Shown here in pieces: positions 22,283-35,350 of a stretch of DNA of 37,585 nucleotides. The stretch's first letter is position 1, and each line of letters opens with the position of its first letter. The translations under genes were made by a program, and so were the position numbers. Source of the DNA: a virus. The notes beneath the pieces were generated by a model. That model saw nothing but the letters and a program-made list of their open reading frames with translations. It ran no database searches and was not told the origin of the DNA. The stretch spans positions 1 to 37,585 of IMG/VR virus record IMGVR_UViG_3300043409_001136. The stretch is one strand, 5' to 3'.

Positions 22283-22364
22283 TTCGATTCCTTGTCATGG
22301 TTCGTCTGAGGGCGTGGCGTGCTGGGTGACGAGTCCAGCCGGGTGCCCCCGTTGCCACGCTTGT

Positions 22365-22393
22365 ATTATGCGCTCAGTGAGTTCGGAGCGCAA
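22365..22393 (-). promoter_or_regulatory. Operator-promoter element, site 1
   Basis: On the minus strand -35 TTGCGC (22393-22388), 17-bp spacer, -10 CATAAT (22370-22365). The 17-mer CTCACTGAGCGCATAAT (22381-22365) is one of six copies in the window. The element overlaps the 3' end of the primase gene, with a predicted +1 near 22358 and a ~76-nt leader before the gene at 22282. It should feed the DUF1064, terminase and perhaps virion genes. Confidence 0.7.
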
Positions 22394-23331
22394 TCACATT
22401 TCGCGGAAAAATCATCGGCGAAATCCGACCCTTCGCCGATCGGCAGATGCACCCGCACCTCGATCTCTGGGCGCTCCTGTACCAGCCGCTTGGCGAGCTT
22501 GTACGCGCTGGCTTGCCCGGTATAGCTGCGGTCGTTGTCGCCTGCGATCGTCAGCAGCGTGACGCCCTCAGGCGGGTTGAACGATTCCAGCAGCCCGGCC
22601 GACACGGTAGACCAGCACGGGACACCCCACAGCGTCGAGTACGCCAGGGCAGTCTCCACCCCCTCAGCCACAGCCAGCCAGCTGTCCGACACAGGGGCCA
22701 GCCGGATAGCGACGTTGTGCAGCCGGTCAGACGGCGGCATCAACTTCCGCGCTGTCTTCACTGCTGCTTTCTCGCCCGCGCTGGTTAGGTAGGTCCGATG
22801 CACCGACAGACACCGGCCCGTCGAGTCCATGACGCTCGCCAACATCGCAGGGTGTGTCGTCTTGCTGCCGTCCTCGTGCCAGTAGTCAAGCTCCGGGTGG
22901 TAGCGGATGCCGGATGGAGGCGTGACGATGCCGCATCGGCGTGTCAGATACAGCCACACGGGGTCGCCCTCGGTAACCGCCACGCCACCTCCCCACACGC
23001 GGCGCAGGTCCGCCTTGAGGTCTTCGGTCGATTTCTTCTGTGCTGGTTCCACAACTCGCCTCACTCTTCCAACTTGCCCAAGTACCCAATCACACGCGGA
23101 TTTGAAGTCCATCCCCTGCAGGTCCATGACAAGGCTTATCCCGTCGCGGCTGCCGCAGTGCGAACAAAAGCTGTTGCCTCGCCCAAATTTATCATCTAGG
23201 CGCCAGCGGTCGCGCCCTTGGCAGGTTGGACACGGCCCGTGCAATCCGCGCACCGTCCTTTCGGTGAGCCACTGCCCTAGGATGCCCTGCCACCGGCCCC
23301 GCGCCGCCTCGAAAACATCGTCTGCCGTCAT
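22366..23331 (-). CDS. Phage primase with zinc finger and Toprim domain
   Basis: 321 residues from ATG 23331, coupled to the antirepressor stop by ATGA. Residues 34-59 form a P4-alpha/DnaG-type zinc ribbon (C34, C37, C56, C59). Residues ~216-300 form a Toprim domain: E223 in LAVAEGVETALA and D265/D267 in IAGDND. There is no C-terminal helicase domain, so it resembles the primase half of P4-like proteins; unwinding would come from another protein, perhaps the SF2 helicase at 24202. It makes RNA primers for phage DNA replication. The last codons contain a promoter for the next transcript. Confidence 0.87.
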   Translation of the reverse strand: MTADDVFEAARGRWQGILGQWLTERTVRGLHGPCPTCQGRDRWRLDDKFGRGNSFCSHCGSRDGISLVMDLQGMDFKSACDWVLGQVGRVRRVVEPAQKKSTEDLKADLRRVWGGGVAVTEGDPVWLYLTRRCGIVTPPSGIRYHPELDYWHEDGSKTTHPAMLASVMDSTGRCLSVHRTYLTSAGEKAAVKTARKLMPPSDRLHNVAIRLAPVSDSWLAVAEGVETALAYSTLWGVPCWSTVSAGLLESFNPPEGVTLLTIAGDNDRSYTGQASAYKLAKRLVQERPEIEVRVHLPIGEGSDFADDFSAKCDCAPNSLSA

Positions 23332-24116
23332 GCGAACAGGTCCGTATCTCGCACTTGGCGCTTTGCCCACTCACCAGCCACCCATTCGACACCCTTCGGC
23401 GTGAACAGGCAGCGGCTGAAGGCATGGCCGTTCGCCTCACCCGTCTTGCACTCGAACCGGCCCGCATCGATGTGGTTCTGATATGCGACCAGCTCACCAG
23501 AAAGTCGATACATGATCTTCTCTTCGGCCAGAAACTCACGGAAGCGCGCCTCGTTCGCCTTCAGCAGCTTGCAGACTTGGCGGAAGCCCTTTGCGCCAGT
23601 GTCGGCGGTCACGTAGCGGTCAACGAACTCGACCTTGGGCGCGGCCAGCGCCAGCGCGGTCTCTGCCTTGAGCTTCGATTCGGTTGCGTCAGCCCATGCG
23701 CGGGCAGCGGCAACAGGATCGGCGAAGTTCGGCAATGCAACAGTGGTGTTGCGTGCATAGCCTCCAGTCTTGCGGATCTCCGGCAACACCTCAGACGTGA
23801 CCCACCGCTTGAACGGCTTCGCTTCTGGCTTGCGACTGCCAAGAATCAGGCTGTAGAGGCCGGACTCATTGACTGCGTTGGTTTCGCCTTGTGGGGCTAT
23901 GTTCAGCATAGCCCGGTCTTCATCGTCAAGGCGTGCGACGGCCTGGGTTGCATTCTGAATGTAGAGCGCGGCGCACACATCGGCGGCCACGAACCACGGC
24001 TCTCCATCGCGCAACAGGGTGCGCACCGTGAAGCTGGCGGACTCGGACATGTGAAATGTGAAGCTCTTCGGCGCGTCAGTGCGCGCGGCAACAAGCTGGG
24101 AGTAGGTTGGGATCAT
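23328..24116 (-). CDS. ant: Antirepressor with BRO-N and KilAC domains
   Basis: 262 residues. Residues ~24-125 are a BRO-N domain (VRTLLRDGEPWFVAADVCAAL, then NESGLYSLILGSRKPEAKPF, TSEVLPEIRKTGGY). Residues ~155-255 are a KilAC/ANT domain (GFRQVCKLLKANEARFREFL, YQNHIDAGRFE). P22 Ant binds and inactivates repressors. It is inserted between the helicase and primase genes, an uncommon place, and is preceded by an 11-bp stem-loop (24133-24164) just before its GAAGGAA ribosome site. Confidence 0.88.
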   Translation of the reverse strand: MIPTYSQLVAARTDAPKSFTFHMSESASFTVRTLLRDGEPWFVAADVCAALYIQNATQAVARLDDEDRAMLNIAPQGETNAVNESGLYSLILGSRKPEAKPFKRWVTSEVLPEIRKTGGYARNTTVALPNFADPVAAARAWADATESKLKAETALALAAPKVEFVDRYVTADTGAKGFRQVCKLLKANEARFREFLAEEKIMYRLSGELVAYQNHIDAGRFECKTGEANGHAFSRCLFTPKGVEWVAGEWAKRQVRDTDLFA

Positions 24117-24132
24117 GTCGTTCCTTCGGGTT

Positions 24133-24164
24133 GCTGGGCATCCAGTTTGCAGCGGATGCCCAGC
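24133..24164 (-). promoter_or_regulatory. Stem-loop before the antirepressor ribosome site
   Basis: GCTGGGCATCC (24133-24143) and GGATGCCCAGC (24154-24164) form a perfect 11-bp stem with a 10-base loop. On the leftward transcript it ends nine bases before GAAGGAA of ant. There is no U-tract, so it is not a terminator; it could control ant translation or mRNA stability. Confidence 0.6.
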
Positions 24165-24201
24165 GGATCAAACTACAGTTTTGCTATGAACTTTGGCCGT
24201 C

Positions 24202-25752
24202 TTATGCCCTGAGTTCTGCGGCTTTCTTGGCGTTAGCCCACCGTATCGTGTCCGCCTTGATCCAACTGCGAAGCTCAGGCGACGGCGGGCACGCGATGTC
24301 TGCGACGGATCTTGGCCACACGCCGGTAACGCTACGGTACTTGTGCGATGCCCAGTGGCGCGAGTAGTCGCGCTCTTCTGCAAACCCCAGCAGCATGGAC
24401 CAAAGGTGCTGCTTCGGGCCGAACCTCAGCGCCGGGTCTTCGGCCTTGTGCTTCTTGGACTTCTGGACCAGCACCAGCTCGCCCTCTTCCATCACGATGT
24501 CGGACGGCCTGCGCGGAACGTGACCGCACGCGGGGCACTCATGCACGCCTGCCGGCTTGAGAAACTGGCACTCTGGGCACGGCTTCGGCAACTTCTCCGC
24601 ATCCTTTTTTTCCTTCTCTTTTTTCTCGCTGGCGCTCTTCGGCCTGCCATCATCAAGCGGGCGATCTGATCGGTCATCAGTCGGGAACCCAAGGCGCAGC
24701 GCGGTCCCGCTATGGTCCAAGATGATGCCGTGCGTTTTGCCTGGTGACGTGCGCAGGACGCGGCCGGCGATCTGCACCCACGAGATCAGCGACCGGGTGG
24801 GCCGGGCCATGATCAGCACCTCTACTGACGGGCAGTCCCACCCCTCACGCAACAGCAGCGGGTTGCACAGGATCTGGAATTCCCCCGCCTCGAAAGCGCG
24901 CAGAAGCTCGGCCTTCTCTTCCTCTGGCTTCCGGTAGTCGATGTGGCGTGCATCAATGCCGACCTTCTGAAACGCCTGTTCGATTGCCTGCGAGTGGGCG
25001 ATGTTGCAGGCGAACGAAACGGCCTTCTTCCCGCCGCCGTGCTGCAGGTACGTCGTCACAATGTCGCCGACCAGCTTCGGCGAGTTCATGCGCTCTGCGG
25101 CCTGGTCTTCGTCCCACTCGCCAGCAGTCACCTTCACGCCTGTCATGTCGGGCGATTCAGGGGCGTAAATCGTGCAGTCGCACAGGTACCCCTGTTTGAT
25201 CAGTTCTTCGGCTGTGATCGGGCACACCTTGGACTGGAATAGCGGTCCTTCCAGCGCCTCATAGTGCTTCGCCATCCCTGCGGCCCACGGTGTCGCTGTG
25301 AGCCCGATTACGGCCGCTCTAGGGGCCTTGGCGTGGACGTGGTGAATAAGCTTGTGCAGCCGGCTATCTCCGCCTGCCGCATGTGCCTCGTCGATCACAA
25401 GCAAAGCCAGATCGTCGGGCATCTCCTTGGGTCGCAGATGCAGCGTTGCAATCGATGCCACCAACACCCGCTTGTGCGTCCCGGCCGTGTTCTTCCCTTG
25501 GATGATCCCGGCATCGATGCCCTGCGATGCAAATCGCTCGACGGTCTGGTTCAAGAGCTGGGTCCGGTTGACCACAAACAGGCACCGGCCACCCTTCGCA
25601 ACTGCCGCCTGGATCATGGCGACAGCGCAAGCCGTTTTTCCACCAGCTGTCACTAGCTCAAGGATGATCCGGCGCTCCTTCATCTTCATGCGCTCTCGGA
25701 TCAGTTCCAGCGCCTTGACTTGATGGGGGCGTAGTTGCATCGGGGTGCTCAT
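24202..25752 (-). CDS. SF2 DEAD/DEAH-box helicase
   Basis: 516 residues. Motif I TAGGKT (35-40), motif II DEAH (121-124), motif III TAT (152-154) and motif VI QIAGRVLR (327-334) define a complete two-domain SF2 helicase of the RecG/UvsW/RAD25-like phage type. A zinc knuckle follows (C392, C395, C406, C409), and the C-terminal ~100 residues are unclassified. It probably unwinds or remodels DNA in replication or recombination. The start overlaps the initiator stop (ATGA), tying it to replication initiation. A lysine-rich linker (SEKKEKEKKDAEK) separates helicase and zinc knuckle. Confidence 0.92.
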   Translation of the reverse strand: MSTPMQLRPHQVKALELIRERMKMKERRIILELVTAGGKTACAVAMIQAAVAKGGRCLFVVNRTQLLNQTVERFASQGIDAGIIQGKNTAGTHKRVLVASIATLHLRPKEMPDDLALLVIDEAHAAGGDSRLHKLIHHVHAKAPRAAVIGLTATPWAAGMAKHYEALEGPLFQSKVCPITAEELIKQGYLCDCTIYAPESPDMTGVKVTAGEWDEDQAAERMNSPKLVGDIVTTYLQHGGGKKAVSFACNIAHSQAIEQAFQKVGIDARHIDYRKPEEEKAELLRAFEAGEFQILCNPLLLREGWDCPSVEVLIMARPTRSLISWVQIAGRVLRTSPGKTHGIILDHSGTALRLGFPTDDRSDRPLDDGRPKSASEKKEKEKKDAEKLPKPCPECQFLKPAGVHECPACGHVPRRPSDIVMEEGELVLVQKSKKHKAEDPALRFGPKQHLWSMLLGFAEERDYSRHWASHKYRSVTGVWPRSVADIACPPSPELRSWIKADTIRWANAKKAAELRA

Positions 25753-26513
25753 GCCACGCCCCTTGCAGCCATGGAGAATGCAGGCTCATCGCATGCGGCC
25801 CGTAGCTCTGCGTTGACATCGTCGAAGCTGGCAGCCGGAAGTGATGCTTTCCCTTGGCTGCCAAATGCTTGTCCATCAAGATGACGCTGCGGGAACTGGA
25901 TGACCTTCCCGGAGAACCGGCTCATCGCCGACAGGTCAACACCCATCGGCAGACGCTCCGTTGCCACTGCGCTAACACCTGAATTCAGGTATCTAATGAA
26001 TACGGTGTCACTTTGCTTGATGTGACACCCCTCAAGTGACGCCCCAAGTGACGCCCCTTGTGACATGGCAAGTGACACCCCTTTGTCGCGTTTGTTGTGC
26101 TGCGCTGCCGTACCGGCGATGCGCTCAAGGTTGATGTATGTCAGCGCCGAAAGGTCGATTTCATAGACGCAAGGCATGACGCCGTGACGCTCTTTTTGTA
26201 TCAACCGAAGGAGCGCCAGCCCATCGTCTGAGCTGTCGTCGATCATGCGGAGAACTCGCTGGATAGTCCGACGTGACAGGGTAGAAGGTGTCCCATCCTT
26301 CGCCTTGCATGGAAGCCGGGACGCAATGCTGTCAATGCCAAGCGACATGATGGGCTCGCCAAAGCCGACAAGCCACTTCAGGATCCGCTTGGCAGATGCG
26401 TGCAGGCTCGATTCATTGATGGTTGCCAAATAGCCAGCGCGGGCCTCGCGGGTCATGTAACAGCCTGGGCGCGATGTGGTCGAATAGCTCTTGATTTCGC
26501 GCGGCTTTTTCAT
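25749..26513 (-). CDS. Replication initiator-like protein carrying iterons
   Basis: 254 residues from ATG 26513, which overlaps the stop of the 47-residue gene. Residues ~30-125 look like a winged-helix/HTH domain (ASAKRILKWLVGFG, then LSRRTIQRVLRMIDDSSDDGL), as in DnaD-like and lambda-O-like phage replication proteins. The middle (residues ~145-167) is a GASL/GVSL tetrapeptide repeat created by the DNA iterons at 26022-26081. The C-terminal third has no recognised match. Position before helicase and primase genes supports a role in origin binding. Family assignment is by pattern and context. Confidence 0.68.
   Translation of the reverse strand: MKKPREIKSYSTTSRPGCYMTREARAGYLATINESSLHASAKRILKWLVGFGEPIMSLGIDSIASRLPCKAKDGTPSTLSRRTIQRVLRMIDDSSDDGLALLRLIQKERHGVMPCVYEIDLSALTYINLERIAGTAAQHNKRDKGVSLAMSQGASLGASLEGCHIKQSDTVFIRYLNSGVSAVATERLPMGVDLSAMSRFSGKVIQFPQRHLDGQAFGSQGKASLPAASFDDVNAELRAACDEPAFSMAARGVA
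25977..26081. other. Predicted replication origin: palindrome, A/T-rich stretch and five iterons
   Basis: GTGAC starts at 26022, 26036, 26048, 26060 and 26072, spaced 14, 12, 12 and 12 bp; four copies read GTGACrCCCC and the fourth GTGACATGGC. GGTGTCAC (26004-26011) is an inverted copy. To the left an A/T-rich run (about 25981-26020) begins with the perfect palindrome ACCTGAATTCAGGT (25977-25990). Iterons inside an initiator gene with an adjacent A/T-rich segment is the lambda ori layout. Confidence 0.7.
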
Positions 26514-26653
26514 GCTGCCACCCACCATGCAGCGCGGATCTTGATGAACTCTTCAAGACTCACAAACAGTTCGTAAGGGGCGTATGCGGCTTCTTGCTGC
26601 TCTGGCGTGAGCTGTGCCCATGGGATCGGGCGCCGGAATTTCGTTTGCATCAT
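26510..26653 (-). CDS. 47-residue protein ahead of the initiator gene
   Basis: ATG 26653 lies behind GAGGAG and the gene ends by overlapping the initiator ATG (ATGA). The product begins MMQTKFRRPIPWAQL, continues with a TPEQQEAAYAPYELF segment and ends in a tryptophan-rich tip (RAAWWVAA). Strong ribosome site and translational coupling make it a real gene; function unknown. Confidence 0.7.
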   Translation of the reverse strand: MMQTKFRRPIPWAQLTPEQQEAAYAPYELFVSLEEFIKIRAAWWVAA

Positions 26654-26763
26654 GGCTCCTCAGCCATCCTCCTGATGAGCGTTAGGCCAGGTCGGGGAGG
26701 AAGTCCGACTCTTCGGGTGCTACCCTAGGCCACGCTTGCCGGCATTGCGCCGACGGTTGTATT

Positions 26764-26973
26764 TTACACCGGATCCGACTCAATGCGGGCCATCAAATCA
26801 GCCCATCCGCCACGCCGCTCAAGGTCAAAGCGGACAAGCTCGTACATCCGCACCAGCGCAATCGTGTCGATCAGCAGTGTTGCACCATCGCGGTCGTCGA
26901 ATGCGCAGACAGTCGGGGCAATGCTCGCGCTAACGTAGCTGTCAAAGTGGACGCCGGTTGAAGTGATTTTCAT
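26764..26973 (-). CDS. Hypothetical protein
   Basis: 69 residues from ATG 26973 behind GGAAGGAACTG. N-terminal half is beta-like (MKITSTGVHFDSYV, TVCAFDDRDGATLLID), C-terminal half helical (VRMYELVRFDLERRGG). No recognised family. The ~110 bp downstream (26654-26763) hold no gene and no convincing promoter. Confidence 0.65.
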   Translation of the reverse strand: MKITSTGVHFDSYVSASIAPTVCAFDDRDGATLLIDTIALVRMYELVRFDLERRGGWADLMARIESDPV

Positions 26974-26974
26974 C

Positions 26975-27226
26975 TCAGTTCCTTCCATTGTTTTCGATCC
27001 GCATGGCACACGGCCACACGGGAGGGTACGGGGCAGCCATCCATGGAACACGCATCGCCGGCTTGCCACCGTCAACACGGGGCCGCCCGTCTGCGATCCA
27101 CTGCGCAGTCTCTGCACGGCCCGCGATGAGCCGCTGGCAGCCCTCGCACTGCGGGTCCGTACTGGGGCGGCTGTTGACCAGCAAAGCGCGGCCTGGGCAG
27201 CGTGCAGCGTCGGTGGGTAGTGTCAT
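26975..27226 (-). CDS. Hypothetical protein with Cys motif
   Basis: 83 residues, ATG 27226 overlapping the methyltransferase stop (ATGA). Pro- and Arg-rich; C10 and the pair C27-x2-C30 in DPQCEGCQRL could bind zinc. Function unknown. Confidence 0.6.
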   Translation of the reverse strand: MTLPTDAARCPGRALLVNSRPSTDPQCEGCQRLIAGRAETAQWIADGRPRVDGGKPAMRVPWMAAPYPPVWPCAMRIENNGRN

Positions 27227-28059
27227 AGTGCTATTGCCTTCAGGAAAATTGCAGCTAGCTCGGGGTCGATCGCATTGCCGTAGCCCTTGAGCCTCATTTC
27301 TCTGGCTTCTGCTGTTCGGCTGACATCGATCTGTGCGCCATGATTGCCGCCAGACACCATTGGGGGGGGTAGTGCATCAACCATCGGGGGTGTGCCGGAT
27401 TCGACAGGGCGAAGCTTTTCGTCTGCGCATTTGATCCAATCAGCCGCCCCAGATCCGACATGAATGCAATTCGCGGGATCGTGTCGTGCCTCGATCGGCC
27501 ATCCTGCCGCGTCATCGATCCGGCCAAGTTCCCGCAGTCCTTCCAGTCTCTGGTTGATGGTGTCGGCCACCCAGTACAGCCGCTGCCGGATGTGCGCCGC
27601 GCCAGCCCCCGCAGAGCACAGATCCGCCGCCCATCCGGTGTAACCCGCTCCGTCCAAGTCAGTGCATACAGCGTCCCACCAGACGAGGGCATCAGGGCTT
27701 GCAACCTGCTCGCCCACAACTCGTGCCGGGCGGAGGTGGCTGATGATGCGGAAGAAGTGGGGCCAGAGGTGTCGGGCATCGTTGAGTCCTTCGCCTTTTC
27801 CGGCGCTTGAAAATGGTTGACAGGGGCAGGAGCCGGTGACGATCCGCACGTCGTCGCCGATGCCAGCAAGGCGGAGCGCACGGGACCAGCCGCCAATGCC
27901 TGCGAAGAAGTGGAGCTGGGTGTATCCCAGAAGCTCAGTTGGGTTGACATCGGTGATGCTCCGTTCGTCCACGTCGCCGGGGGCTATCTCGCCGGCCTTG
28001 ATGAGTTCGCGCAGCCAGGCAGCAGCATAAATATCATGTTCGTTGTAATACGCAGTCAT
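27223..28059 (-). CDS. C5-cytosine DNA methyltransferase, orphan
   Basis: 278 residues from ATG 28059 (ATGA with the HTH gene). Motif I FAGIGG at 52-57 binds S-adenosylmethionine; motif IV SCPCQPFS holds the catalytic C80; motif VI is GEQV (117-119) instead of the usual ENV; motif VIII IRQRLYW at 157-163; motif X GYGNAIDPELA near the end. The target-recognition region between VIII and X is short. No restriction enzyme gene is adjacent, so it probably protects phage DNA from host restriction or alters regulation. It is the second gene of a leftward transcript beginning near 28250. Confidence 0.92.
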   Translation of the reverse strand: MTAYYNEHDIYAAAWLRELIKAGEIAPGDVDERSITDVNPTELLGYTQLHFFAGIGGWSRALRLAGIGDDVRIVTGSCPCQPFSSAGKGEGLNDARHLWPHFFRIISHLRPARVVGEQVASPDALVWWDAVCTDLDGAGYTGWAADLCSAGAGAAHIRQRLYWVADTINQRLEGLRELGRIDDAAGWPIEARHDPANCIHVGSGAADWIKCADEKLRPVESGTPPMVDALPPPMVSGGNHGAQIDVSRTAEAREMRLKGYGNAIDPELAAIFLKAIAL

Positions 28060-28220
28060 TTCAGCGCCTCCTTGCGCTGCCGAACAATCGCCTTCCACAG
28101 CCCGCCATGCGAGCACCCTGCGATCTGAGCTGCCTTGCGGATGGACTCGCCGGACGCAACTAGCGCCAGCGCGAGAATGATGTGTGGGCTCAGTTGGCCC
28201 TTGAGGTGGCTTGTTGCCAT
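28056..28220 (-). CDS. Small HTH DNA-binding protein
   Basis: 54 residues from ATG 28220 behind AAGGAG; a longer frame up to 28268 would begin inside the promoter. GESIRKAAQIAGCSHGGLWKAIVRQ (split into GESIRKAAQIAGCS and HGGLWKAIVRQ) is a helix-turn-helix. It is the first gene after a promoter enclosed by inverted repeats (28250-28295), so autoregulation of this transcript is likely. Confidence 0.72.
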   Translation of the reverse strand: MATSHLKGQLSPHIILALALVASGESIRKAAQIAGCSHGGLWKAIVRQRKEALK

Positions 28221-28249
28221 ATGGCTCCTTGGTGTGTGGCTGATTCGAT

Positions 28250-28295
28250 GTCTGTAGTGTATCCCCACATGGAGACATACGCAAGAGCTACAGAC
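28250..28295 (-). promoter_or_regulatory. Promoter enclosed by nested inverted repeats (replication transcript)
   Basis: Minus strand -35 TTGCGT (28284-28279), 17-bp spacer, -10 TACACT (28261-28256). Outer arms GTCTGTAG (28250-28257) and CTACAGAC (28288-28295) are perfect inverted copies; GTAT/ATAC and an imperfect CCATGTGG palindrome lie inside the spacer. This differs from the CTCAnTGAG element and suggests a second regulator, perhaps the 54-residue HTH protein. Confidence 0.65.
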
Positions 28296-28297
28296 GC

Positions 28298-28322
28298 AAA
28301 AAAGCCCGGTAGTTCCGGGCTT
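28298..28322 (-). terminator. Intrinsic terminator ending the small-gene operon
   Basis: AAGCCCGG (28302-28309) and CCGGGCTT (28315-28322) form a GC-rich stem with loop TAGTT; on the minus strand it is followed by a run of U from A298-A303. It ends the leftward transcript of 28339-30268 just before the next promoter. Confidence 0.85.
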
Positions 28323-28338
28323 CGTGGGGTTGGGTACG

Positions 28339-28536
28339 TCAGGCTGTTACGTCGCCATCAAGCCGCATCTCAAGCAGCGCACCGAGGATCTGCTCTGACA
28401 GCTCAGGCCAGCCTGCAGCGTTGATGACTGACTTGATTTCGACCTGCGCGCATGCGCCATCGTCCATCGTGACGATTGCCAGCTCGCCGGTTTCGTCCTC
28501 GATCACAATCATTGCGGGGTAACGGGTAATGGTCAT
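28339..28536 (-). CDS. Hypothetical acidic protein
   Basis: 65 residues from ATG 28536. Beta-like N-terminus (YPAMIVIEDETGELAIVTMDD) and helical C-terminus (WPELSEQILGALLEMRLD). Net acidic. No recognised family; last gene before the terminator at 28298-28322. Could bind a positively charged partner, but nothing more can be said. Confidence 0.68.
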   Translation of the reverse strand: MTITRYPAMIVIEDETGELAIVTMDDGACAQVEIKSVINAAGWPELSEQILGALLEMRLDGDVTA

Positions 28537-28754
28537 GATTGCACCTTGATCGCCGGGCCGCAGCCGAAGCCCGGTTTGCATCGCTTCTGAAACGGAACCC
28601 GCTTCTCTGGCTGCAACTGTGCCGACGGCATGTGCGTCCCGCACCGGAAACAGGACATTCGCAGCGGGGCGCCATGCGTGGCACCGAACGGGGATCCAGG
28701 CGCTTCGGGGTGGCGCTTGTCGTGAATGCTCCAGTTTTCTCGTGCGCGGCTCAT
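28533..28754 (-). CDS. Hypothetical Cys-containing protein
   Basis: 73 residues, ATG 28754 and stop both coupled to neighbours by ATGA. SCFRCGTHMPS holds a C-x2-C pair and KRCKPGFGCGP a second pair, so a small zinc ribbon is likely. N-terminus SRARENWSIHDKRHPEAPG is basic. Function unknown. Confidence 0.65.
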   Translation of the reverse strand: MSRARENWSIHDKRHPEAPGSPFGATHGAPLRMSCFRCGTHMPSAQLQPEKRVPFQKRCKPGFGCGPAIKVQS

Positions 28755-29089
28755 GCGTACACCTCGGCGTGATGGCGGCCGGTGGTGACACGGCGGCCGG
28801 TGCCGAGGTCAAACACGAACGACACCGCGGATCGCTTGAGCTGATCAGCACTGGCCCGCGTCAGGAAGTGGTCGCCATGCCGAGCAATCAACCCGGTCAA
28901 CGATGCCAGCCTCAGCATCTCTGCATGCACCTCAGGCGGCCTGCACCAGCCACGGCGTACAGCATAGCCCCGGAGCGTGGCAATCGTGACCCCGGTTGAT
29001 TCCGCTATCACTCGATACGTGATAGCTGGGTCAGACTCCCACCGACTGCGCCATGCGTCGATCTTTGGGCGTTGAATTGCGGTGGTCAT
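28751..29089 (-). CDS. HTH-like protein, paralogue of the upstream gene
   Basis: 112 residues from ATG 29089. Residues ~8-55 (WRSRWESDPAITYRVIAEST, then GVTIATLRGYAVRRGWCRPPEV) match the upstream protein in the pattern W-E-x2-P-x-T ... T-x-R-x2-A-x-R-x-GW-x-R-P-x-V, a helix-turn-helix in which the GW-R-P part follows the recognition helix. C-terminal half has a beta hairpin (FVFDLGTGRRVTTG). Regulatory role inferred. Confidence 0.65.
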   Translation of the reverse strand: MTTAIQRPKIDAWRSRWESDPAITYRVIAESTGVTIATLRGYAVRRGWCRPPEVHAEMLRLASLTGLIARHGDHFLTRASADQLKRSAVSFVFDLGTGRRVTTGRHHAEVYA

Positions 29090-29448
29090 GCTGCACACCA
29101 TGCCGCGTAGTCAAACACGCTGCTATACCGCCGAGCGCGCGGTTCATTGATCGGCTTCGGCCACTCGCGCTTATGCGTCGGTTTTGCGCCTGGTCGTTTC
29201 GAGGGCTGCACGTATGTTCTTGCCGCGACTTGAGCCAAAATGGTAGCCCGAACACGCTGGGCATGGATCTTTTTTGCCTCAACGACAACGTCCGGCCGGC
29301 GCTTCCAGCCGTTGCGGATCGCATGCTGTCTCATCGTGCTAGTGCCAGAGCCGAGACGGATCTCAAGCTCGTTAAACGTCACTGGGGTAGTTTCCCACTC
29401 AACGCGGACAGACTCGCGGACAGAATCTGGAAGTGTTTTGCGTCTCAT
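29086..29448 (-). CDS. HTH-like protein
   Basis: 120 residues, coupled to both neighbours by ATGA. RVEWETTPVTFNELEIRLGS and STMRQHAIRNGWKRRPDVVVEA form a helix-turn-helix shared with the downstream gene; the C-terminal part is basic and Pro-rich (QPSKRPGAKPTHKREWPKP). Likely a DNA-binding protein. Function unknown. Confidence 0.65.
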   Translation of the reverse strand: MRRKTLPDSVRESVRVEWETTPVTFNELEIRLGSGTSTMRQHAIRNGWKRRPDVVVEAKKIHAQRVRATILAQVAARTYVQPSKRPGAKPTHKREWPKPINEPRARRYSSVFDYAAWCAA

Positions 29449-29585
29449 TTGTAGCTCCTGAGCTTGTCGCAGAGTGCGCTGATGTGCAGCAGCACGGCGC
29501 CGGAATCGGGGTGAACGATGCCCATTTCATTCAGCGCGTGCTGGTAGTACGCGATGCGGATGCGGGTGATTGCGTAGCCGATCAT
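29445..29585 (-). CDS. 46-residue hypothetical protein
   Basis: ATG 29585 overlaps the preceding stop. Product is helical (YAITRIRIAYYQHALNEM, then AVLLHISALCDKLRSYK). The frame upstream of 29585 is a GC-rich shadow and lacks a ribosome site. No family recognised. Confidence 0.6.
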   Translation of the reverse strand: MIGYAITRIRIAYYQHALNEMGIVHPDSGAVLLHISALCDKLRSYK

Positions 29586-29728
29586 GCGTGGCTCCCGGTG
29601 CGCTCGACCTCGGCCAGCGCGGTGGCGAATGCAGCGAATGCGCGGGCCAGGCGCTGCAGCAGCGTGACGCGGTGGGCTCGGCGGATGCGGATGGACATGC
29701 AACCGCTTGGATTGTGGACGGTGTTCAT
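29582..29728 (-). CDS. 48-residue basic protein
   Basis: ATG 29728 follows GAGGTG, and the stop overlaps the next ATG. Product is Arg/Ala-rich and helical (MSIRIRRAHRVTLLQRLARAF, given here in part, then AAFATALAEVERTG). Amphipathic, possibly membrane- or nucleic-acid-binding. Function unknown. Confidence 0.6.
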   Translation of the reverse strand: MNTVHNPSGCMSIRIRRAHRVTLLQRLARAFAAFATALAEVERTGSHA

Positions 29729-29910
29729 GCAGTCACCTCGTGAGCGATGGTGTCACCGCGGCGCGGCAGGTACTCGCGGCCCGTGACGGTCGCAAACATG
29801 GCGCGCAGATCGCGCAGGGCGTGGGCATGGCTCGGGTTGGCGTTGGTCGTGATGACAAGCGGGCGTCCGATCAGGTGGCGACGGGTCAGAGTGACGCGGT
29901 GGGCGGTCAT
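29725..29910 (-). CDS. 61-residue hypothetical protein
   Basis: ATG 29910 overlaps the preceding stop. Basic N-terminus (MTAHRVTLTRRHLIGRPLVI), a His-containing middle (ANPSHAHALRDLRAMF) and a beta-like end. No recognised family. Confidence 0.6.
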   Translation of the reverse strand: MTAHRVTLTRRHLIGRPLVITTNANPSHAHALRDLRAMFATVTGREYLPRRGDTIAHEVTA

Positions 29911-30083
29911 TTTGCGCCCCCGATACGCTTGGCGTAGGCGTCGACACAGGCTGCCACGCGGTCGCGCTGCTGCTGGAGGCGATCGACGAGGATGCGGCGG
30001 GATGCCTCGACTTGACGGGCCTTCCATGCGTCGATCCGCGCGTCGTTCTCGCGGTCTGCTTGTGTTACGATTGCGTCGTTCAT
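29907..30083 (-). CDS. 58-residue coiled-coil protein
   Basis: ATG 30083 stands six bases after AAGGA; ATG 30089 is in frame but too close to it. Almost entirely one charged helix (DARIDAWKARQVEASRRILV, then DRLQQQRDRVAACVDAYAKR). Likely an oligomerising adaptor. Function unknown. Confidence 0.62.
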   Translation of the reverse strand: MNDAIVTQADRENDARIDAWKARQVEASRRILVDRLQQQRDRVAACVDAYAKRIGGAK

Positions 30084-30085
30084 CT

Positions 30086-30268
30086 TCATTCCTTCGATTT
30101 GAGCCCGGCGGCACATGCATCCGGGCTCTTTTTTTGCACCATCGGGCGCGGGGTGTAGTGAGAATAATCTCGCGGCGCCAGGCCACGGGATTCGGCGAGT
30201 TGCTGGCGGATCAGCTCCGACAGCTCAACGTCTGCGGCGTTGTGGATTGGGCTAGTGATGTCAGTCAT
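30086..30268 (-). CDS. 60-residue protein, first gene of the small-gene operon
   Basis: ATG 30268 lies 8 bases after the -10 box of the predicted promoter and no Shine-Dalgarno sequence precedes it, so the mRNA is probably leaderless. Helical N-half (AADVELSELIRQQLAESRGL), then a Tyr/Pro-rich middle and a Lys-rich end. The 3' part of the gene contains an inverted repeat that is a rightward terminator (30101-30135). No recognised family. Confidence 0.65.
   Translation of the reverse strand: MTDITSPIHNAADVELSELIRQQLAESRGLAPRDYSHYTPRPMVQKKSPDACAAGLKSKE
30101..30135 (+). terminator. Rightward intrinsic terminator inside a leftward gene
   Basis: GAGCCCGG (30101-30108) and CCGGGCTC (30121-30128) pair around a 12-base loop and are followed on the plus strand by seven T (30129-30135). 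All genes here run leftward, so it would stop antisense transcription. On the minus strand the stem precedes the ribosome site of the gene at 30083. Confidence 0.7.
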
Positions 30269-30276
30269 TGATAGCG

Positions 30277-30305
30277 ATCATGCGCGCATTGAGCGTATGA
30301 GTCAA
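30277..30305 (-). promoter_or_regulatory. Operator-promoter element, site 2
   Basis: Minus strand -35 TTGACT (30305-30300), 17-bp spacer, -10 CATGAT (30282-30277), containing CTCAATGCGCGCATGAT. The -35 overlaps the stop codon of the lipoprotein gene. It drives the small-gene operon 30268 to 28339; predicted +1 is within 2-3 bases of ATG 30268. Confidence 0.75.
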
Positions 30306-31114
30306 GCGCCGGTTTTGCAGCGAGCGGCAGCCACCAGCGGCAACAACACGGGGGCCAGCGCGTTGCGGGTCACGGCGGAATAGCCGTCTGCCGTCGCGTG
30401 CACGCCGTCCGGGGCGTACTGCCACCAGTCCGGCAGGCTCTGGACATATGCGCGAGCGTCAGCGATCGGGATGCCTCGATGGGCTGCGACATCACGCATG
30501 ATTTGGGCGTAATCGGTCTTTGCGGTCGAGACGGGCAGTGGGGTCTGGAAGACAATCTGCACGGGAGTGGCTGCAAACTGCTCTAGGTGGTCGCGGTAAA
30601 CATCGGGGGTGACGCCCCATGCAACGTCATTGATGCCGTGGTTAACGACTGCGATGTCGGCGTCTACCGACTGCGGCCACGGCTTGTTCGCGCCATCGGT
30701 TCCGGCCAGCAGATGCCCGCTCGTCGTGCCGGACACGGCCCGTGTGCTGACGACGACGGCCCCGTATCCGAAACGCTGGTCCATCTCCTGCTGCAGCGCC
30801 AGCTCGGGGTAGACCGATGCGCGGGCGCCGTTGCCGCCAGCCAGGTAGCCCCACATTGTCGAGTCGCCGAAGAGCTGGATCTTGACGACGTGATCGCAGA
30901 CCGGGGCTGCGGCAGTCTCCAGCACCGGGGCCGAGCTTTCACCGCCGCCACCACAGCCGGTCAGGGCGCCAGCTAGGCCGATGCAGGCGATGATGACCAG
31001 CCCCTTGATCCAGTGAGGGACGCGGGGCTTCTGCGGCGCATTGGCAGCCTCATAGTGCTGGCGACGGGTGGCGCGGACTTGGTTGTGCAGGTGGTAGGCG
31101 TTGCGGTCTTGCAT
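30302..31114 (-). CDS. Lipoprotein SGNH/GDSL hydrolase (moron-like)
   Basis: 270 residues. A positively charged 36-residue n-region precedes a hydrophobic signal segment (GLVIIACIGLAGALTGC) with lipobox LTGC, C54 being the lipidated residue, then a Gly/Ser linker. SGNH blocks: GDST with S85, GIND at 160-163, and D236/H239 in PDGVH. It would be anchored in an outer or inner membrane and face the periplasm or surface, where it could remove acetyl groups from glycans and alter phage adsorption or envelope properties. The long n-region is unusual and a later start is possible, though none has a better ribosome site than GAGGA before ATG 31114. Lies beside the divergent promoters, apart from the lytic genes. 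Confidence 0.83.
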   Translation of the reverse strand: MQDRNAYHLHNQVRATRRQHYEAANAPQKPRVPHWIKGLVIIACIGLAGALTGCGGGGESSAPVLETAAAPVCDHVVKIQLFGDSTMWGYLAGGNGARASVYPELALQQEMDQRFGYGAVVVSTRAVSGTTSGHLLAGTDGANKPWPQSVDADIAVVNHGINDVAWGVTPDVYRDHLEQFAATPVQIVFQTPLPVSTAKTDYAQIMRDVAAHRGIPIADARAYVQSLPDWWQYAPDGVHATADGYSAVTRNALAPVLLPLVAAARCKTGA

Positions 31115-31181
31115 GGTGTGTCCTCGGGTAGTAGTCGGTTGGTTGATTGCTGCGCCCGGTAGGCGCAGGGGTCAGGCAACT

Positions 31182-31382
31182 TTATGCGGCCAGCGTCACG
31201 TCATACCAGTCTGAATTCTTCTTCTCCATCTTCTTCGCCGCTGCTTGAGCATTTGTCATTTTTGAGTAGCTGCCGCTGAACTGCTTGCCGCCGCGGTCCG
31301 TGGTGAAGTACACCTCAAACGGACGGAGCTTGCCGGTTTGCGGGTTGTGCTCTACATGGATGGTTGCGGCTGGCTTTGTCAT
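31182..31382 (-). CDS. Small protein behind the divergent promoter
   Basis: 66 residues with ribosome site AAGGAAACG. Beta-rich first half (LRPFEVYFTTDRGGKQFSG) and Lys/Ala-rich helix (NAQAAAKKMEKKNSDWYD). Fold resembles small double-psi or DUF-type proteins but no family is recognised. First gene of the leftward transcript from 31430; the lipoprotein gene follows after a 67-bp gap containing a 7-bp stem-loop (31150-31168). Confidence 0.7.
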   Translation of the reverse strand: MTKPAATIHVEHNPQTGKLRPFEVYFTTDRGGKQFSGSYSKMTNAQAAAKKMEKKNSDWYDVTLAA

Positions 31383-31429
31383 GATCGTTTCCTTGTCTGC
31401 GGACCTGCGTTTGCTGATCCAGTGACGCT

Positions 31430-31458
31430 AGTATGCGCTCAATGAGCGCGGCGTGCAA
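31430..31458 (-). promoter_or_regulatory. Operator-promoter element, site 3 (leftward arm of divergent pair)
   Basis: Minus strand -35 TTGCAC (31458-31453), 17-bp spacer, -10 CATACT (31435-31430), containing CTCATTGAGCGCATACT. It serves the genes at 31382 and 31114. Site 4 lies 35 bp away and points the other way. Confidence 0.75.
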
Positions 31459-31492
31459 CTCTTTTTGCGCTGGATTTGCATGGCATCTCTTG

Positions 31493-31521
31493 TTGACCGC
31501 TTCGCTCAATGAGCGCATGAT
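31493..31521 (+). promoter_or_regulatory. Operator-promoter element, site 4 (rightward arm of divergent pair)
   Basis: -35 TTGACC (31493-31498), 17-bp spacer, -10 CATGAT (31516-31521), containing CTCAATGAGCGCATGAT (31505-31521). Predicted +1 near 31528, ~25-nt leader to ATG 31553. Strongest match to consensus in the window. Confidence 0.8.
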
Positions 31522-31552
31522 TGAGGCACTGAACAGCAACCGAGACGACGCC

Positions 31553-31828
31553 ATGACCCAGTTCCAGATCAACGCAGCCATGCAGCAGAAGTTCGCCCAA
31601 GCCGGCATCCCGCACGAGTCCATCAAGGTTTTCGGCGTCATCCGTCAACACGTCTACGTGACATGCATCAGCCGCAACACCGCCGACAGGTGGGCTCTGC
31701 TGCTGAACGGCGTGTTCCCAGGCTCGAAGATCGCATGTGTCCGCCATCAGTGGAACGCGGTCGAGAACAAGGGGACCAGCATGCGGCCGACAAAGCGCAG
31801 CGGGTGGCTTGTGGCTGTGGCCGGCTGA
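31553..31828 (+). CDS. Small protein, first rightward gene
   Basis: 91 residues; the frame extends upstream through the promoter, so ATG 31553 is chosen. It starts MTQFQINAAMQQKFAQAGIP and continues VFGVIRQHVYVTCISRNTADRW, an alpha-beta mix ending in a basic tail. No recognised family. First product of the rightward transcript. Confidence 0.65.
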   Translation: MTQFQINAAMQQKFAQAGIPHESIKVFGVIRQHVYVTCISRNTADRWALLLNGVFPGSKIACVRHQWNAVENKGTSMRPTKRSGWLVAVAG

Positions 31829-31866
31829 CCCGTCAAATTACCAACCAACCAACCGAAGGAACCGAA

Positions 31867-32355
31867 ATGAACATCAAGACCATGGGCCAAATCGAAATCA
31901 CGCATTGGGACGGACGAGTGCTGTACACGTACCAACCTGCGGATGCGTCAGGGCTCACAATGCGTCACGCACTGGAGTCCGCAAGCAGTAGCGGCGCTGA
32001 CCTGAGCGGCGCTGTCCTGATCGGCGCTGACCTGCGCGGCGCTGTCCTGATCGGCGCTGACCTGAGCGGCTCTGTCCTGATCGGCTCTGTCCTGCGCGGC
32101 GCTGACCTGCGCGGCGCAACGGTCTATGGCGTCAAGATCACCCGCGCCCCGGTTGTCGTTGACGGCCTGCACTGGCCCGTGCAAATCATCGACGGGCACA
32201 TCAAGATTGGGTGCCAGCTCCACGCGATCAGCGCATGGGCATCGTTTGATGACGCCGCAATCGCCGCAATGGACGGACGGGACGCGCTGCGATTCTGGCG
32301 CGAGCACAAGGCCGCGATCATGGCGCTGGCGGCACCGTTTCCCGTGACGGCCTGA
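31867..32355 (+). CDS. Pentapeptide-repeat protein
   Basis: 162 residues from ATG 31867 behind GAAGGAACCG. Residues ~43-85 are A(D/V)LxG pentapeptides (GADLSGAVLIGADLRG and following), which form a right-handed quadrilateral beta-helix; some such proteins mimic DNA and inhibit gyrase or other DNA enzymes. The repeat run is short (~9 units), and the following domain (VVVDGLHWPVQIIDGHIKIG to RFWREHKAAI) is common in phage pentapeptide proteins of unknown role. Encoded by near-identical 30-bp DNA repeats. Confidence 0.83.
   Translation: MNIKTMGQIEITHWDGRVLYTYQPADASGLTMRHALESASSSGADLSGAVLIGADLRGAVLIGADLSGSVLIGSVLRGADLRGATVYGVKITRAPVVVDGLHWPVQIIDGHIKIGCQLHAISAWASFDDAAIAAMDGRDALRFWREHKAAIMALAAPFPVTA
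31993..32119 (+). repeat. 30-bp tandem repeats encoding pentapeptides
   Basis: Units start at 31993, 32023 and 32053 with GGCGCTGACCTG, differing at one to three bases, followed by a partly degenerate 15-bp-phase copy to about 32119. Each 30-bp unit encodes two pentapeptides. Such arrays can lengthen or shorten by slippage without changing the frame. Confidence 0.85.
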
Positions 32356-32387
32356 CAACGCGCCACAGGCCTGGGCATGTTCTGGGC

Positions 32388-32416
32388 TTGTGGCTGTGGC
32401 TGGGTGATGATATGAT
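32388..32416 (+). promoter_or_regulatory. Promoter of the predicted small RNA
   Basis: -35 TTGTGG (32388-32393), 17-bp spacer, -10 TATGAT (32411-32416); predicted +1 near 32423. It does not contain the CTCAnTGAG element, so control should differ from the coding transcripts. Confidence 0.7.
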
Positions 32417-32422
32417 TTCACC

Positions 32423-32530
32423 TGTCTGATCTGAGTGGTGCCGGAGATGACGACAACATGAGCCCCGTGGCTCGCGTTCTCTGCCCGAAAGGGTCCGGCA
32501 CCACCGGAGAGCGCGAACCACGGGGTTTTT
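32423..32530 (+). ncRNA. Predicted ~108-nt RNA with interleaved helices and terminator
   Basis: Between the promoter and a T5 run (32526-32530) the RNA has helix A, GTGGTGCCGGA (32435-32445) with TCCGGCACCAC (32494-32504), 11 bp perfect; helix B, CCCCGTGGCTCGCGTTCTC (32463-32481) with GAGAGCGCGAACCACGGGG (32507-32525), 19 positions with one mismatch and one G-U; and a CCC-GAAA-GGG hairpin (32484-32493). The order is A-B-A'-B', a pseudoknot or switch topology. Helix B plus T5 is an intrinsic terminator. Short ORFs inside lack convincing ribosome sites. No known RNA family is recognised. It may be a free sRNA or an attenuator for the rha gene downstream. Confidence 0.65.
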
Positions 32531-32956
32531 GCGCTTCTGGACGGCAAGCGGAGTCTGTCGGTCGAGGGTTTGCGGCCGGTGTCAGGAAGCCCACAGCACA
32601 GCGGCAATGGTCGCGAACTGAGGCGGCGGGGCGGTCTGTAGTGCAGGGATACCAGCACCAGACGCAACGGCGGGGTGTAGAGGCATCGGGGCGAGTCTTA
32701 ACGCTCTGGCCGCTTGTCTATGCGCACAGAGGGTGCAAGCGCAGTGGAGGACTTGCCGGAACTGTCCCTGTCGTCAAGATTGGGAGTGCGGAACCGGTTC
32801 AGCAGGCCATGCAGGCGGCGGGCAACCGTTGTAAAGCTGCTGATAATCGTAGCGACCGGATAGCCGGCTCCGTGGATGATGAAGCCAAAGCTCACTGAGG
32901 TGGGCTAGGGGTTTCTTTGTCTTCACTTCCCTTCAGCCTCACCATGGATGATGAAC
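32531..32956. other. 426-bp stretch without a recognised gene
   Basis: It follows the RNA terminator and precedes the second rha gene. A rightward frame (32458-32898) and a leftward one (32698-32895) stay open, but neither has a ribosome site or recognisable protein features. A core copy of the operator, CTCACTGAG (32891-32899), lies ~50 bp before rha without the attached -10 hexamer. Confidence 0.5.
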
Positions 32957-33643
32957 ATGAGCAACATCACCAACATCCAGAAGACCATGAGCACCCGCGA
33001 GATCGCGGATCTGGTCGAGGCTCGCCACAACGACGTGACCGCCACGGTTGAGCGCCTGTTCGGCAAGGGGCTTTTACGATCAAGTCGTGAAACCCGCCGC
33101 GAGTTCACCGGAGGCCGCCCCGTCGATGTCTATGACCTGATCGAGCGCGACACGCATCTAGTCGTGTCCGGCTACAGCGACGAGCACCGCGCCAAGGTTA
33201 TCGACCGCTGGCAGGCACTGGAAGAGACCGCGGCGCAGGCATTGCCGCCGCGCGCCACGCTCACGCCAGTCTCATTCAAGGCCGAAGCGGATGCACTCAA
33301 GGCGATCATGGGCGACGACGAACTGAAGCGGCTGGCCCCGCTGCTGTGGCAAGAGATCACCGATGCGGCCCAGAACGCCATGCGCAATGTCATGGGGTCA
33401 ACGCTGGCCCTGCCCACACCAGACGCGCCGAAGCTGCTGGATGTCGTCGAGATCGCCAAGGCACACGGGATCGAGCTGCCTCAGAACCTGCGCGGCGCGG
33501 CCGGCAAGTACGTGAAGGCTCGCGTCACCGCCGTCGAGACGGAGCGTCTCATCAACGGCGCGATCCGCAAGTCATCCGCCTATGCCGACCATGCAGCCGT
33601 CGCCGCCGCGCTGCACGATTACATCGCCGGGCGCAAAGCCTGA
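32957..33643 (+). CDS. Second Rha-like regulatory protein
   Basis: 228 residues from ATG 32957, with weak GGA eight bases upstream; ATG 32948 and 32951 are in frame. Residues ~12-85 form the Rha pattern (MSTREIADLVEARHNDVTAT, then VERLFGKGL, YDLIERDTHLVVSGYSDEHR, IDRWQALE). The C-terminal half (LLDVVEIAKAHGIELPQNLR, then GAAGKYVKARV) is unlike the partial Rha at 1-436. Probable DNA-binding regulator. Confidence 0.8.
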   Translation: MSNITNIQKTMSTREIADLVEARHNDVTATVERLFGKGLLRSSRETRREFTGGRPVDVYDLIERDTHLVVSGYSDEHRAKVIDRWQALEETAAQALPPRATLTPVSFKAEADALKAIMGDDELKRLAPLLWQEITDAAQNAMRNVMGSTLALPTPDAPKLLDVVEIAKAHGIELPQNLRGAAGKYVKARVTAVETERLINGAIRKSSAYADHAAVAAALHDYIAGRKA

Positions 33644-33682
33644 CACTCACCACGGATGGCGACATCCAGACAAGGAATCGAA

Positions 33683-34087
33683 ATGACGAACGAACAGACG
33701 ATTGACGAGATCATGAAAGCCGCTGCCGATTCGGTGCTGGCCGAGATCGCGCACCACAACATGCCCAGCTCACTACGGGCCGGCGTGTGCGAGCGCAAGG
33801 AGACCGCGCTGCGCCACGCGATCACCGCCGCACTGGCCGCCAAGGATGCCGAGATCGAGCGGCCGAAGACGCAACTGGCCAAGCCTGCCGAGCCTGAGCT
33901 GGGGGAGTGGATCGAGTGGGCGGGCGGGCAGTGCCCGATTGCGGATGGCGTACTGTTTTCCGCAAAATTCCGCGATGGGGCCATCACAAACAAATACCGC
34001 CATGCGACAGAGTACAGATGGAGCCATGGCGGCGGCGATTTAGGGGTTATAGAGGCCGACATCGTGGCCTACCGGGTGCTGGCATGA
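33683..34087 (+). CDS. Hypothetical protein
   Basis: 134 residues from ATG 33683 behind AAGGAATCG. Helical N-half (TIDEIMKAAADSVLAEI and a coiled-coil-like AALAAKDAEIERPKTQL), then a beta-rich C-terminal domain (ADGVLFSAKFRDGAITNKY, HATEYRWSHGGGD) that recurs as a small phage module. Function unknown. Its stop overlaps the next start. Confidence 0.72.
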   Translation: MTNEQTIDEIMKAAADSVLAEIAHHNMPSSLRAGVCERKETALRHAITAALAAKDAEIERPKTQLAKPAEPELGEWIEWAGGQCPIADGVLFSAKFRDGAITNKYRHATEYRWSHGGGDLGVIEADIVAYRVLA

Positions 34088-34305
34088 CCGCCAAGCCACA
34101 CACCGCGCCAGTCTGCGAGCTGCTGGACCCGATGATCTACCCGCCACCGCGCGGGGTGCAACTGCTAGTTGTGACGCGTGGCGGAGTGCTGATTAAGGCG
34201 CCATGGGCACCGGACATGATCGCCTGGGGGCCGTTGCCGCAGATCCCAGAGACAGTCAAACTGCGCCAGCGCGAGATAGCCGAGCGGCTGCTCATCAAAG
34301 ATTGA
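34084..34305 (+). CDS. Hypothetical protein
   Basis: 73 residues, ATG 34084 overlapping the upstream stop (ATGA). PPPRGVQLLVVTRGGVLIKAP, WAPDMIAWGPLPQIP is the typical short phage domain beginning after LLDPMIYP; C-terminus helical. The stop codon overlaps the -35 box of promoter site 5. Confidence 0.72.
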   Translation: MTAKPHTAPVCELLDPMIYPPPRGVQLLVVTRGGVLIKAPWAPDMIAWGPLPQIPETVKLRQREIAERLLIKD

Positions 34306-34330
34306 TTGCCGCACTCACTGAGCGTATGAT
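34302..34330 (+). promoter_or_regulatory. Operator-promoter element, site 5
   Basis: -35 TTGATT (34302-34307), 17-bp spacer, -10 TATGAT (34325-34330), containing CTCACTGAGCGTATGAT (34314-34330). The ATG of the HTH gene begins at 34337, exactly the expected +1, so a leaderless mRNA is predicted. Confidence 0.8.
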
Positions 34331-34336
34331 GTCGCC

Positions 34337-34558
34337 ATGAACAAACCAACACCACAAGAGATCCTGTCGGCTCGCCTCGCTGCCAGCCAAAACCAGACCG
34401 ACGCAGCAGCAGAGATTGGAATGTCCCTGCGAGCGTGGCAGCAGTGGGAGTCCGGCGATCGCGGGATGAGCCCGCAGCTCTGGTCCATGTATCTGCTGCG
34501 GACCCACCAGCACCCAACCGAAAAAATCTCAAAAAAGCGAACGCGGCACGCTCAATGA
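34337..34558 (+). CDS. HTH (XRE-type) regulator
   Basis: 73 residues. EILSARLAASQNQTDAAAEI followed by GMSLRAWQQWESGDRGMSPQ is an XRE-type helix-turn-helix, with a basic C-terminus (EKISKKRTRH). There is no Shine-Dalgarno sequence; the start codon coincides with the predicted +1 of its promoter, as in lambda cI from PRM. Operator elements flank the gene on both sides (34314, 34551), making it the best candidate for the protein that binds them. It is too short to be a full CI. Confidence 0.75.
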   Translation: MNKPTPQEILSARLAASQNQTDAAAEIGMSLRAWQQWESGDRGMSPQLWSMYLLRTHQHPTEKISKKRTRHAQ

Positions 34559-34582
34559 GTGCATGATATCTACATGCGCTGA
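34551..34582 (+). promoter_or_regulatory. Operator-promoter element, site 6, with two-codon leader ORF
   Basis: CTCAATGAGTGCATGAT (34551-34567) supplies -10 CATGAT (34562-34567) but the -35 position (GAACGC) is poor, so activation may be needed. The predicted +1 is ATG 34574, which opens the ORF ATG-CGC-TGA (34574-34582). The real gene starts at 34611 behind GGAG. Confidence 0.6.
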
Positions 34583-34610
34583 ACGGTTCGGCGCAGAGAA
34601 GGAGAAGAGA

Positions 34611-34943
34611 ATGGACACTGAACAAATCAACCAGGCGACCCGCGCTTACGGTCGCGCACTGGCAGCCGGCCAATCCGGTGAAGCTGCGATGCGCGCGGCA
34701 TTCAGCTCGGTCTACGGCCTGGGCGGCCCGAGCATCAAGCGCGTCACGCTCAACGGCGTGGACCTCGTCGTCAGCTTTGACGGCGAGCCGGAAGATGGCT
34801 GGTCAATCATGGTGCAGCACGGAACGGACATCTCCGCGCTGCTGTCCGACGATCAAGTCGCCGTGATTGATCGTATCCTGCCCAAAGCGCCGGACGTGCT
34901 GATCGATAGCATGGGGTTCTCTGGCTCGGTGGGGGTGCGGTGA
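34611..34943 (+). CDS. Hypothetical protein
   Basis: 110 residues from ATG 34611 with AAGGAG upstream; the frame also opens at ATG 34563, but that lies in the -10 box. Helical N-half (EQINQATRAYGRALAAGQSG), beta-rich C-half (RVTLNGVDLVVSFDG, SIMVQHGTDISALL). Possible new regulator or inhibitor, no recognised family. Confidence 0.68.
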   Translation: MDTEQINQATRAYGRALAAGQSGEAAMRAAFSSVYGLGGPSIKRVTLNGVDLVVSFDGEPEDGWSIMVQHGTDISALLSDDQVAVIDRILPKAPDVLIDSMGFSGSVGVR

Positions 34944-35242: not shown

Positions 35243-35257
35243 AAACTGGAGAACGAG

Positions 35258-35350
35258 ATGAACGAACACGATTACTCGCTTCCCTCGCAAGAGGACACCG
35301 ACGCCTACCCGGTTGACGCCGCCGGCACGTACACGGGGGTGATGCTGTGA
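35258..35350 (+). CDS. 30-residue acidic peptide
   Basis: Clear ribosome site (GGAGAACGAG) before ATG 35258; the stop overlaps the GTG start of erf (GTGA). Product NEHDYSLPSQEDTDAYPVDA plus a short tail is strongly acidic. Coupling suggests it may regulate Erf translation or be a small protein in its own right. Confidence 0.55.
   Translation: MNEHDYSLPSQEDTDAYPVDAAGTYTGVML

Follow-up and report, generated by a model that had tools for sequence, protein, structure and literature searches.

Probable operators and their promoters

The window analysed here, meaning the whole stretch of DNA under study, comprises positions 1 to 37,585 of the IMG/VR virus record IMGVR_UViG_3300043409_001136 on one strand, and all coordinates refer to it. 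Based on its portal, head, DNA-ejection, and Erf-like genes, the phage looks like a P22-like podovirus. Six operator copies, five good and one weak (operator 1), are spread over 12 kb and both strands. A preliminary description had reported them as copies of a 17-mer, CTCAnTGAGCGyATrAT, and all six are present beyond chance. Three are exact (22381-22365 on the minus strand, 31505-31521, and 34314-34330) and three carry one mismatch (30293-30277 and 31446-31430 on the minus strand, and 34551-34567). With up to three mismatches allowed, the 17-mer occurs at eight places in the window, against 1.05 on average and at most 4 in shuffled sequences.

In the 17-mer, the right-hand two thirds of a 19-bp palindrome, ATACGCTCAnTGAGCGTAT, are joined to a -10 hexamer. 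Operators 2 to 6 match this palindrome at 16, 14, 15, 14, and 14 of 18 positions. The earlier reading of every copy as a near-palindrome needs one correction: the copy at 22365 is only a weak palindrome (12/18). Five sites in the window match the published 19-bp palindrome at 14 or more of 18 positions, compared with a mean of 0.09 for permuted half-sites of the same composition. Each of these five lies at a promoter position or a gene boundary. A core-only copy had also been proposed at 32891. It consists of a bare CTCACTGAG with no other features, is best taken as a chance occurrence, and was rejected as an operator.

Operator 1 (22365-22386, minus strand) has TTGCGC at 22393, a 17-bp spacer, and CATAAT, and the TAA stop codon of the primase gene falls within its -10. 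Operator 2 (30280-30298, minus strand) reads ATACGCTCAATGCGCGCAT, which is the best palindrome in the window, with TTGACT at 30305, a 17-bp spacer, and CATGAT ending at 30277. Operators 3 and 4 stand back to back and separate divergent units. The former (31433-31451, minus strand) has TTGCAC at 31458, 17 bp, and CATACT; the latter (31500-31518, plus strand) reads CTTCGCTCAATGAGCGCAT, with TTGACC at 31493, 17 bp, and CATGAT ending at 31521. Operator 5 (34309-34327, plus strand; CCGCACTCACTGAGCGTAT) lies in a promoter formed by TTGATT at 34302-34307 and TATGAT at 34325-34330, again 17 bp apart. Operator 6 (34546-34567, plus strand; GCACGCTCAATGAGTGCAT) spans the 3' end and stop codon of the gene that follows operator 5. 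It has a -10-like CATGAT, and GAACGC at the -35 position.

A TTG at -35 with a 17-bp spacer therefore occurs in exactly five copies, as had been counted before, and the overlaps of the -35 with a stop codon at 30302 and 34302 were also correctly described. The sixth copy, at 34551, is an operator without a clear promoter. A strict sigma-70 scan of positions 20000-37585 returned three promoters, a number not above the shuffle count, and all three are operator copies.

The left half of the window operators is relaxed, so that the sites are less symmetrical than the published one (12 to 16 of 18), and some of them might bind weakly. The TGAGCGYAT half, most of which lies outside the sigma-70 consensus, is kept in all copies except two, with one change each. 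The copies are not recent duplications, because their flanks differ.

Genes downstream of the operators

The first gene after operator 5 (34337-34558, plus strand) encodes a 73-aa helix–turn–helix (HTH) protein and is predicted to be driven by the operator 5 promoter. Its mRNA is probably leaderless, as the ATG starts 7 bases past the -10. Operator 6 lies ahead of the rightward recombination genes. The next gene, with its ATG at 34611, encodes 110 aa (34611-34943, plus strand); beyond it come genes for an Erf-like annealing protein (35347-35940) and a Gam-like protein (35944-36447).

Leftward, operator 2 heads an early region of small ORFs with genes for a methyltransferase, a helicase, an antirepressor, and a primase. 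Operator 3 is predicted to drive a 66-aa ORF (31382-31182, minus strand), and probably also a GDSL-lipase gene (31114-30302). Operator 4 would drive a 91-aa ORF (31553-31828, plus strand), and probably a pentapeptide-repeat gene (31867-32355) as well. The promoter of operator 1 is predicted to drive a gene for a Cys-containing 75-aa protein (22055-22282, minus strand). The extents given for these transcripts are predictions.

No homologue was found for the 66-aa or the 91-aa protein, and both are candidate anti-defence proteins. The single-sequence model of the 66-aa protein has a beta3-alpha-beta fold (pLDDT 84); as a query, the protein returned no relatives among viral contigs, and neither its model nor that of the 91-aa protein had a significant match in the PDB. 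PDB matches that likened the 75-aa protein to designed repeat proteins were rejected as artefacts. More generally, the small genes adjoining the operators had no match to solved or curated protein families, and no small window proteins were found in other aca10 loci.

A probable Aca10-type regulator

By sequence, the 34337 protein is a homologue of Aca10, a member of an anti-CRISPR-associated (Aca) family. Alone, it matches PDB entry 7xi5 at E=9e-16 (phmmer), and a profile of operator-linked HTH proteins does so at E=1e-30. 7XI5 is the Aca10 of Pseudomonas citronellolis, the repressor of the acrIC7-acrIC6-aca10 operon (PMC9410881). Identity to this protein is 58% over 53 aa, about 82% of its 65 residues, which falls within the published cut-off for Aca10 homology of 50-100% identity and 80-100% coverage (PMC9410906). 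Residues Q22, Q37, and R44 of Aca10 have been tested and are involved in DNA readout (PMC9410881). They are kept in the window protein as Q20, Q35, and R42, and are invariant in the family alignment.

The P. citronellolis Aca10 dimer binds a minimal site, 5'-ATACGCTCATTGAGCGTAT-3', within the promoter of its operon (PMC9410881). This palindrome is found in the promoter of the 34337 gene itself (14/18), and matches up to 16/18 elsewhere in the window. The family identity and the full palindrome are additions to the preliminary description, which had put forward the 34337 HTH protein as the likeliest single regulator contacting the promoter spacer. That proposal is now supported by three mutually independent lines of sequence evidence: a search from operator to gene, a search from gene to operator, and homology to a protein with the same published site.

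The search from operator to gene was blind to the protein. Viral contigs scanned with the 17-mer gave 46 matches in 45 stretches, and by rough estimate these 45 loci are about at chance level. The scan becomes informative once the -35 spacing is required: a TTG stands at the exact distance in 11 of the 46 matches, several of which are near-identical copies of one locus, where about 0.7 were expected. A second scan, for TTGAC, 4-6 bases, and CGCTCANTGAGCGNAT, returned 19 stretches, about ten of them distinct, and nearly all of these loci carry, downstream in the operon, a small gene for the same type of HTH protein. Every window ORF of at least 50 aa was compared with the ORFs of 11 loci found through the operator-promoter. 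The 34337 gene was the only real window gene matched, in six of the 11; an antisense ORF overlapping it was also matched, once. Most of the remaining loci have a more distant HTH gene just downstream. In four phage loci, the same operator-promoter goes with an operon that encodes a far more divergent HTH protein (IPLRTVQGW type), so operator conservation seems to reach beyond clear similarity between the regulators. Two near-identical promoters, TTGCAAACTATCTCAATGAGCGTATAATG, lie 7 kb apart in a 348-kb viral record.

The reverse search used a protein alignment and was blind to the operator. It recovered 23 bacterial loci, and 19 of these carry an operator scoring at least 15/18, whereas permuted half-sites give 0.05 loci on average. 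The corresponding viral search gave 80 loci. A single-protein search with the 34337 protein found no relatives among viral contigs; the alignment search alone succeeded. Where at least 1.5 kb of upstream DNA was available (n=89, bacterial and viral loci together), the operator occurs within 2 kb upstream in 72 cases. Column frequencies across loci show it flanked by a -35 resembling TTGACA and a -10 resembling TATAAT.

The operator has two forms, GCTCAnTGAGC and GCGCAnTGCGC. In raw counts that ignore kinship, its sixth base varies together with residue 31, which immediately precedes the conserved arginine of the recognition helix. Proteins with TCA-TGA sites have Leu at residue 31 without exception (28 of 28), and the 18 proteins with GCA-TGC sites mostly have Cys, Arg, or Thr there, kinship again being ignored. 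The window protein has Leu31, and the window sites are mostly of the TCA-TGA form that this residue predicts; operator 2 is a hybrid of both forms. This large collection of operator and protein pairs, in which two site forms track one residue beside the recognition helix, makes a recognition code for the family testable.

The HTH protein also has relatives on some 1700 plasmid records, mostly conjugative. The operator is absent from those of these distant plasmid relatives that were examined, on IncX1 and other plasmids, and in two that were aligned, one of them IncX1, the recognition helix differs from that of the window-type protein. On both grounds, the plasmid relatives were ruled out as a wider regulon.

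In five other loci, aca10 genes ending in ..LIER.. encode these residues as CTC ATT GAG CGY, which is the operator core. Operator 6 of the window, within which the stop codon of the 34337 gene falls, occupies the same place at the 3' end of the gene in another reading frame. An operator inside the end of its regulator gene may be under selection at the DNA level.

Site number among Aca10 loci

With respect to site number, the window phage is an outlier among Aca10 loci. One site of at least 15/18 is present in 73 of the 89 loci, two sites in two, and more in none. At a looser cut of at least 14, the maximum is three sites, some of them by chance, against five in the window. Most host genomes with aca10 contain a single strong site, located at the aca10 operon. 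The promoter-operator pattern was found in 4 of 399 Burkholderiales genomes, once in each. An operator that lies 20 kb from the aca10 gene in another genome, adjoining an integrase-like gene, may be a second instance of a distant target.

No relative of the window phage with the same operator set was found, the relatives recovered through the portal gene being partial records with no such sites; thus, the multi-site layout is known from one genome. One record related through the portal does carry an Aca10-like gene, yet no operator of this sequence could be recognised in it. A search with the primase yielded no relatives.

Comparison with known systems

In published descriptions, bacterial Aca proteins each repress the one acr-aca operon that encodes them. 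A phage with many dispersed Aca sites would show that this class of protein can run a regulon, as has been proposed for archaeal viruses. The window does not have the layout of a single acr-aca operon, with one or two inverted repeats at one promoter, as its sites extend over 12 kb and both strands.

The closest comparison is the P. citronellolis operon, which shares with the window the protein family, the recognition residues, the 19-bp palindrome, the position of the operator inside a sigma-70 promoter, and autoregulation, which is predicted for the window phage (PMC9410881). However, that system has one operator and one operon, whereas the window has six dispersed sites on both strands. There, aca10 is the last gene in the operon, while the aca10-like gene of the window is the first in its unit. 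In addition, the P. citronellolis operon carries acrIC7-acrIC6, whereas no known acr gene was recognised in the window by comparison with solved and curated protein families.

In archaeal rudiviruses, a single regulatory sequence precedes 11 of the 13 early genes of SIRV2, and the Aca protein of this Aca8 system has been proposed to control other anti-defence genes (PMC11065993). The likeness to the window lies in a regulatory sequence common to dispersed early genes and the aca gene, with a proposed shut-off by the Aca protein. By analogy, the window phage looks like a bacterial counterpart of this shared early-gene operator, although the Aca8 system works with an archaeal promoter, comprising a TATA box and BRE, and its Aca is predicted to be a wHTH protein from a different family (PMC11065993). 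Conjugative plasmids of the pLS20 family similarly have several operons of variable anti-defence genes with one regulatory sequence in common, but these establishment regulons belong to Bacillus plasmids and involve other sequences and other mechanisms (PMC8708921). A bacterial Aca with a dispersed regulon was not found in the open-access literature searched, where the Aca8 system is the nearest precedent.

Single repressors with many operators dispersed over the genome occur in phages P1 (C1) and L5 (stoperators). Those repressors maintain lysogeny, and their sites differ in sequence from the window operators.

A predicted early-gene switch and its alternatives

Taken together, the repeats are very probably the operators of the phage's own Aca10-type repressor, encoded at 34337-34558, which would silence its own gene as well as several early units on either strand. 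The sequences themselves show where the sites lie, how the promoters are laid out, to which family the protein belongs, and that operator and protein occur together in many genomes. Dimer formation, binding to the palindrome, and repression are carried over from the published homologue. We infer that the window protein binds all six sites, when it does so, and that its targets are early or anti-defence genes. At least five promoters of the phage, distributed over both strands, contain the published Aca10 site, so that a switch otherwise known from single anti-CRISPR operons alone probably turns down a whole group of early genes here.

Early in infection, host RNA polymerase would use the five promoters whose spacer holds an operator overlapping the -10. 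The Aca10-like protein, made from one of them and probably on a leaderless mRNA, might then accumulate as a dimer, bind the palindromes, cover spacer and -10, and so exclude RNA polymerase. Its own gene and several early units would be shut off, and sites of graded quality could give a graded shut-off.

A more limited role is unlikely, yet is the strongest of the alternatives: the Aca10-like protein might act at its own promoter and possibly at one or two more, with the remaining copies being strong early promoters that owe their likeness to shared elements or relics and are subject to little repression. Nearly all other Aca10 loci do have one strong operator (73 of 89), and the degenerate left half and the 12/18 score of the 22365 copy fit this reading. 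However, the TGAGCGYAT half has persisted within differing flanks, and the best palindrome in the window belongs to operator 2, 4 kb away from the aca10-like gene.

It is far less probable that the sites serve another regulator, which could be a host protein, one of the Rha/KilAC-type proteins of the window, or a CI-like repressor encoded beyond the record. The contig may be incomplete, and a separate master repressor or other repressors could fall outside it: the record ends within the early gene set, and neither a CI-like repressor nor an integrase was found among the window proteins scanned. Nevertheless, the 34337 gene is the only one common to the window and operator-bearing loci elsewhere, the site equals the published Aca10 site (PMC9410881), and the rarity of the operator in the Burkholderiales genomes, none of which has more than one, speaks against a host protein. 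Least credible of all is the view that the element is only a strong type of early promoter, recurring through chance or convergence with no regulator involved. All copies are indeed promoter-like, but the palindrome occurs far more often than expected and goes with a single gene family in many phages and bacteria that are not related to one another.

A broader reading of the predicted Aca10-type repressor is more tentative, and we hold it to be somewhat short of an even chance. The protein would be a general early-gene switch, Cro-like in effect, whose six operators control replication, methylation, recombination, and other early genes, and the first genes of the units (31182, 31553, 22055, and 34611) would encode unrecognised anti-defence proteins. 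If so, the operator could serve as bait for anti-defence genes in bacterial phages, as has been done in archaeal viruses, and candidates could be named by their promoter rather than by their neighbourhood.

Other features of the window

Two different antirepressor-type genes, of the Rha and Ant types, are present in this one phage on opposite strands (32948-33643 and 23328-24116). The pentapeptide-repeat gene downstream of operator 4 contains a 15-bp tandem repeat (31990-32117). Finally, positions 26668-26735 on the minus strand match the int-alpA RNA of Rfam, with a score barely over the gathering threshold.
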